From Streptomyces sp. CG 926 (lineage in GTDB: Bacteria > Actinomycetota > Actinomycetes > Streptomycetales > Streptomycetaceae): a DNA stretch of 64,000 nt. How positions within the stretch are numbered: position 1 is the stretch's first letter; each line of letters starts with the position of its first letter. The DNA is taken from the NCBI RefSeq assembly GCF_003148825.1, contig NZ_QGGZ01000002.1, forward strand, positions 682,001 to 746,000, in the 5' to 3' direction. Both the position numbers and the translations under genes were made by a program. Positions 25,351-25,454 of this stretch are shown in pieces. The notes under the pieces were generated by a model. That model saw nothing but the letters and a program-made list of their open reading frames with translations. It was not told the DNA's origin and made no database searches.

Positions 25351-25374
25351 AAAAAACCCCTCGCACAGGAGGGG
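25351..25374 (-). terminator. Attenuator terminator in the leuS leader
   Basis: On the minus strand CCCCTC (25374-25369), loop CTGTGC, GAGGGG (25362-25357), then six T residues (25356-25351). It stands inside the leader, 51 bases before the leuS ATG and downstream of a leucine-rich leader peptide. T-tailed hairpins are uncommon in this genome type, so its position in front of leuS points to conditional termination. Confidence 0.85.
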
Positions 25375-25415
25375 ACGCCGCGCCGGGTCCGACCGTCTGG
25401 AAGGGTCGGTACTGA

Positions 25416-25454
25416 TCAGCGCGGCTCGGTAAGCAGAAGGCGTACGGCACGCAT
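25416..25454 (-). CDS. Leucine leader peptide of leuS
   Basis: ATG at 25454 opens a 12-residue peptide, MRAVRLLLTEPR, with three consecutive leucine codons (25439-25431, CTT CTG CTT) and TGA at 25418-25416. CTT is a poor codon in such genomes, so it is a sensible sensor of charged tRNA-Leu. A TACCCT -10 box ends six bases upstream, so the peptide is probably translated from a leaderless transcript. The sequence encoding Pro-Arg (25425-25419) is complementary to 25383-25377, just ahead of the terminator, giving a route for ribosome position to alter folding. Confidence 0.8.
   Translation of the reverse strand: MRAVRLLLTEPR

Follow-up and report, generated by a model that had tools for sequence, protein, structure and literature searches.

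The analysed stretch of DNA, referred to here as the window, comprises 64,000 nt of the Streptomyces sp. CG 926 genome and contains, on its minus strand, the leucyl-tRNA synthetase gene leuS preceded by a short leader with an open reading frame (ORF) of the MRAVRLLL type (Table 1). All the elements that a sequence-only reading had listed ahead of the gene—a −10 box TACCCT, a leader peptide with three consecutive leucines, a complementary pair of segments, an inner hairpin, and a T-tailed terminator—are present on that strand. The complementary pair consists of GCCGCGC (25425–25419) and GCGCGGC (25383–25377), and the helix that it forms is designated P1. The 5′ strand of P1 begins 5 nt past the last Leu codon, and a gap of 2 nt separates the helix from the terminator. 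A consensus scan of positions 25200–25700 recovered the terminator (3 terminator-like sites against 0.3 expected from shuffles) and listed no sigma-70 −35/−10 pair, and hence only the −10 box is recognisable. Judged by the spacing of this box, transcription in this genome probably has a leaderless start.

Table 1. Mapped parts of the leuS leader region in the window
Feature	Position	Strand	Remarks
−10 box TACCCT	25466–25461	−	Ends 6 nt ahead of the leader ATG (25454); leaderless-type spacing
Leader ORF MRAVRLLLTEPR, then stop	25454–25416	−	12 codons; read from the sequence
Leu codons CTT CTG CTT	25439–25431	−	Last one (25433–25431) the likely sensor codon
P1 5′ strand (segment 1)	25425–25417	−	Overlaps the stop codon; helix of 9 bp when this leader is folded
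P2 inner hairpin, nested in P1	25409–25389	−	CCGACC 25409–25404 with GGTCGG 25394–25389
P1 3′ strand (segment 2)	25385–25377	−	Pairing from survey, fold, and alignment
Intrinsic terminator (segments 3 and 4)	25374–25351	−	CCCCTC-CTGTGC-GAGGGG-TTTTTT, six U
Terminator loop	25368–25363	−	Candidate antiterminator partner of 25383–25378, from folding
leuS, leucyl-tRNA synthetase	25300–22430	−	956 aa, GLHVGH kind; ATG at 25300

Two tRNA-Ala(GGC) genes lie upstream of the leader (25556–25629 and 26137–26210, minus strand), and a strong inverted repeat follows the nearer of them, ahead of the leuS promoter region. Directly ahead of leuS itself, the stretch CAGAGACGATCGATGGAGCTT (about 25331–25308, minus strand) is strongly conserved in the genus alignment, beyond the needs of a ribosome-binding site.

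Attenuators of leuS were predicted in S. avermitilis and S. coelicolor in 2005 (PMC1262725). In S. lividans TK24, the leader leuL2 encodes MRAVRLLLSEPR and was found to be leaderless by RNA-seq in 2021; a hairpin and a U stretch separate it from leuS (PMC8079986). A leucine attenuator of leuS, as proposed from the letters of the window, is also the reading given in the accessible text of these two papers. Such attenuators having been published for Streptomyces, the element in the window is a further copy of one already known in this genus, and it is well confirmed here. Added here are the presence of the leader throughout the genus, P1, the bias towards CTT, the matches to a covariance model across the class, and the occurrence of the leader before two LeuRS clades. 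A keyword search of an open library, covering titles and the starts of abstracts, returned no report of the leader outside Streptomyces or before two LeuRS clades. The available portions of PMC4833913, PMC9413887, and PMC4633059 contain nothing on leuS leaders, the last of these describing cysteine-rich leader ORFs in mycobacteria.

LeuS was found in all 150 genomes of the genus sample, the window's own included, and 147 upstream regions were used. The three left out had a C-terminal match only (G001), no listed N-terminal match (G045), or a contig end (G144). The 12-codon leader ORF is present in 147/147 of these regions, ends in TGA in every case, and has a TANNNT box 6 nt (143 regions) or 7 nt (4 regions) ahead of its ATG. 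Its peptide is MRAVRLLLSEPR in 79 leaders, MRAVRLLLSGPR in 36, the window's MRAVRLLLTEPR in 15, and one of ten rarer forms in the remaining 17. In the alignment of 145 distinct sequences, conservation is highest at the −10 box, at CCGCGCTGA and GCGCGGC, across the terminator and its loop, and in a stretch close to the start of leuS. The copy in the window is unremarkable within the genus. A further small ORF, starting MGTRFELLRCY and preceded by CCATACC, occurs about 340–394 nt upstream of leuS in part of the genus (for example L044, L016, and L027).

A wider survey took in 100 further upstream regions (2 from the genus, 51 from other genera of the family, and 47 from other families), with a region counted as positive when an LLL ORF had TANNNT 6–7 nt before its start. 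Positives numbered 2/2, 48/51, and 18/47, respectively; at least one negative (G278) has a covariance-model match. The 47 genomes from other families were chosen by N-terminal match to the window's LeuS, and therefore, this set misses a second kind of LeuS described below. Together with the 147 genus regions, the positives make up 215 leaders, of which 212 have a scored terminator, the three misses all belonging to one family (f28). The sequence-only reading had made its case depend on conservation of the leucine run and the terminator in relatives, and both are conserved at these frequencies.

The leucine run is itself highly patterned. Its last codon is CTT in 210/215 leaders and CTC in the other 5, whereas the third-last position is CTT in 152 and the second-last CTG in 170. 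CTT is decoded by the tRNA-Leu with anticodon GAG. The codon had been called rare in this DNA, and counting bears this out: it accounts for 16/1,218 Leu codons in 29 window ORFs picked by GC3, 0/74 in the window's leuS, and 0/2,179 in 30 leuS genes. The retention of a rare codon in the leader of a gene that has none makes isoacceptor-specific sensing directly testable.

The RNA structure was assessed in an alignment of 35 divergent leaders (<0.86 similarity) drawn from 208. In this set, 97.4% of P1 cells are paired, and 2 pairs of the helix show double changes; P2, which is missing from some leaders, has 72.2% of cells paired and double changes at 6/6 pairs; and the terminator has 88.2% of cells paired. 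For the whole structure of P1, inner hairpin, and terminator, 89.1% of cells are paired, as opposed to 41%–53% for slid versions, and RNAalifold run unaided yields P1 and the terminator. P1 is 9–10 bp long, stop codon included. Among 212 leaders, all 7 of its scored pairs are present in 209, 6 in two, and 4 in one, and the linker between P1 and the terminator measures 0–3 nt in 210. Compensated variants include GCCGCAC paired with GTGCGGC (L154, L166) and GCCGTGC paired with GCACGGC (L226), altering the last residue of the peptide. The helix is also retained where the stop codon comes earlier (L287, L297, L323, L371) and where the ORF continues through it (L295). When scored by script, the Leu run, P1, and the abutting terminator are all present in 306/315 stretches, including 214/215 leaders—100 of the 315 having been picked by pattern or model, so that they are not independent—and in 294 of the 306, P1 starts 5 nt past the last Leu codon. 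P1 and the terminator are well supported; the 2:3 partner expected of a classical attenuator is not.

On this basis—a leaderless-type start, a 12-codon ORF ending LLLTEPR before its stop, a covarying P1, and an adjoining terminator—positions 25466–25351 (minus strand) likely constitute a ribosome-mediated transcription attenuator, with scarce charged tRNA-Leu admitting more polymerase into leuS (probability about 0.78). When charged tRNA-Leu is ample, the ribosome would complete the ORF and depart, upon which P1 (1:2) would re-form and the terminator (3:4) would halt transcription. When it is short, the ribosome would stall at the last Leu codon, the rare CTT, covering part of the P1 5′ strand. 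The freed GCGCGG could then pair with the terminator loop CUGUGC until polymerase clears the U tract, which is the weakest step of the scheme. Leucine-dependent control of leuS is what these features would predict. By analogy, two earlier results may be counted against an attenuator: codon replacement in the ilvB leader of S. coelicolor was without effect, and the results for leuA are at odds with attenuation (both as cited in PMC1262725).

Switching was examined by folding with ViennaRNA and our own scripts, with differing 5′ stretches hidden to represent the ribosome; pairing was called at 3 or more expected pairs with the 3′ arm of the terminator hidden. With nt 1–28 hidden and P1 free, pairing between segment 2 and the terminator loop is seen in 0/212 leaders. 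This rises to 159/212 with nt 1–34 hidden, which we take to be about the stretch covered by a ribosome whose A site is occupied by the last CTT, and to 168/212 with nt 1–37 hidden. With nt 1–49 hidden, as for a ribosome at the stop codon, 87/212 still pair, and therefore termination needs ribosome release. This behaviour suggests a classical scheme in which P1 is 1:2, segment 2 with the loop is 2:3, and the terminator is 3:4.

The 2:3 pairing itself is less secure. Shuffled loops pair with segment 2 in 112–121 of 212 leaders when nt 1–37 are hidden, fewer than the 168 with real loops. With the whole terminator present, however, the pairing persists in 5/212 leaders (−6.8 versus −10.2 kcal/mol), and while 92.7% of its cells pair, there is no double change and no excess over column shuffles. 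It was called in 31/74 of the named set and 5/18 of the deep set, with mean pairs of 2.27 (2.52 for shuffled loops) and 1.85 (1.62 for shuffled loops), respectively. The antiterminator is thus a candidate only, exceeding shuffled loops in the first survey and not in the wider sets; as an antiterminator for the whole class, segment 2 with the terminator loop is unsupported by the shuffle comparisons. The sequence-only reading had remarked that no antiterminator partner was obvious, and a convincing one is still missing after folding and shuffling.

Other candidates fared no better. Any upstream pairing to the terminator was found in 296/306 stretches with P1 masked and 1/306 with P1 free, but in no group does it exceed what shuffled letters give, and it is therefore explained by composition. 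An extension of P1 into the terminator arm by the preceding codons showed no consistent pairing when inspected by eye. P1 was also rejected as a classical antiterminator with bases in common with the terminator: it stops 0–3 nt short, and the mean probability of the terminator stays at 0.91–0.98 at every ribosome position in 104 leaders, with at most 7 of them below 0.5. The complementary pair noted from the sequence is real, being P1. Because none of its bases belongs to the terminator, and because folding leaves the terminator free when P1 forms, it is better understood as the 1:2 helix that protects the terminator than as an antiterminator.

Since the 2:3 partner is poorly supported while P1 and the terminator are well supported, P1 might itself act as the antiterminator: with the ribosome stalled at the first Leu codon, P1 would form and sterically block closing of the terminator stem in the RNA exit channel without sharing a pair with it. 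The short linker fits this arrangement, as does the folding of naked RNA, in which P1 and the terminator are compatible. P1 also starts 14 nt downstream of the point where the first Leu codon begins, which is presumably about where the ribosome footprint ends. Adjacency is, however, equally expected of a 1:2 helix beside a 3:4 terminator, and it is the last Leu codon rather than the first that is most conserved; steric blocking by P1 is accordingly considered unlikely.

More doubtful still is a constitutive partial terminator, with the leader ORF serving for coupling or as a UGA-release signal and not for leucine. Most leaders do have their stop codon inside P1, and any ribosome on P1 could draw a response from the released segment, but against this reading stand a run of at least three Leu codons ahead of leuS in 215/215 leaders (a search criterion outside the genus), a Leu codon of the rarest type at a fixed place, and a P1 that is kept where the stop codon moves. 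A T-box or another leader binding tRNA or a ligand would have a precedent in Firmicutes, where T-boxes govern most synthetase genes (PMC1262725, in the part consulted). No Rfam family is found on the leader at gathering score, and nothing beyond two unrelated families (E 6.7 and 8.1) came up in a permissive search, which makes this explanation scarcely credible.

Attenuation of amino-acid and aminoacyl-tRNA operons is said to have been treated by Lopatovskaya and colleagues in 2010. The spread of the leuS attenuator was followed here with a covariance model, R1, built from the P1 and terminator pairs. In the window's own genome, R1 has a single match, at leuS (E 3.2e-19; next E 5.96), so no other gene there lies under an R1 element. 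Across the class, it matches 117/296 genomes and 50/114 genera, and in a draw from the phylum 15/246 genomes, two of them outside the class (G566 and, weakly, G488). Of 52 matches outside the genus (G202–G339), 46 are followed, 54–575 nt downstream on the same contig and strand, by a LeuS match; four of the other six are near a contig end (G256, G313, G323, G332), and two are on a different contig from the LeuS match (G233, G269). By similarity, 22 of the 46 precede the window's kind of LeuS and 24 the other kind, and in twenty R1 stretches that were read, the start of a DLHMGH-kind gene follows in most and a GLHVGH-kind start in others.

A pattern scan of named contigs gave at least 80 loci. 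Among those listed, 74/80 precede leuS by motif or reading and 5 end too soon to tell; the leuS-preceding loci include Kitasatospora, Streptacidiphilus, Amycolatopsis, Jiangella, Kineosporia, Actinospica, and Phytoactinopolyspora. R1 matches 79 of the listed loci, all but L310, a deltaproteobacterial metagenome-assembled genome (MAG) that was dismissed as a chance pattern match. Among 52 LeuS proteins, a quick maximum-likelihood tree separates 45 of the GLHVGH kind from 7 of the DLHMGH kind (SH-aLRT 100), several DLHMGH rows being long-branched. The leader precedes two deeply separated LeuRS clades.

Several single cases were recorded alongside. The Actinophytocola MAG Dino_bin25 has two leuS genes, one of each kind and each behind an LLL leader (L308, L350), although a mixed bin is possible. 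In contigs titled Chloroflexi (L322) and Acidobacteria (L362), the leader is present and LeuS falls among the actinobacterial ones in the tree, as would follow from mis-binning or transfer. G401 has two R1 matches, C5:472927–473023, which precedes a LeuS-like frame with masked bases, and C30:34677–34770, and the match at G269:C6:178455–178539 is weak (E 7.9e-6) and on a contig other than that of the genome's LeuS match. By eye, TG[TC]CCGG recurs a few nt past the terminator U tract before both LeuS kinds (L285, L287, L289, L293, L297, L301, and others).

Given how similar the RNA is ahead of both LeuS kinds, two origins seem less likely than a single cassette retained in front of differing genes; alternatively, the leader and its gene may have been duplicated as one. 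The fuller proposal carries about even odds: a single homologous leucine-attenuator cassette—a leaderless LLL ORF running into CCGCGCTGA, P1, and the abutting terminator—would occur throughout the class and would have outlived its gene, either because synthetases were swapped downstream of a retained sensor or because sensor and gene were duplicated as a unit, and the near-invariant rare CTT at the end of the run would make it a sensor of one tRNA-Leu isoacceptor. If this picture holds, R1 describes an RNA element that Rfam lacks and that would give many actinobacteria T-box-independent control over an essential synthetase, and the leader would be a natural case of a sensor persisting while the enzyme behind it differs.

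Compared with the classical trp attenuator of E. coli, the leader in the window shares a codon run and the 1:2 and 3:4 helices, but it differs in its probably leaderless ORF, the stop codon within the 1:2 helix, and a weak, non-conserved 2:3 pairing. Its closest described relative is leuL2 of S. lividans TK24, which is transcribed leaderless, likewise places a hairpin and U stretch ahead of leuS, and encodes a peptide one residue off that of the window; the transcript start was measured there and is predicted here, and P1, the CTT bias, and the wider spread are described here and not for leuL2 in the available text of PMC8079986. The predicted attenuators of S. avermitilis and S. coelicolor (PMC1262725) also have a leader ORF and a terminator before leuS, together with an antiterminator, for which the window offers a candidate. 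The LEU element of actinobacterial leuA, as described there, has in common with the window a leader ORF with a Leu run. It precedes a different gene, however, and has a base stem with the leuA Shine-Dalgarno sequence and a pseudoknot, whereas the window has an intrinsic terminator.
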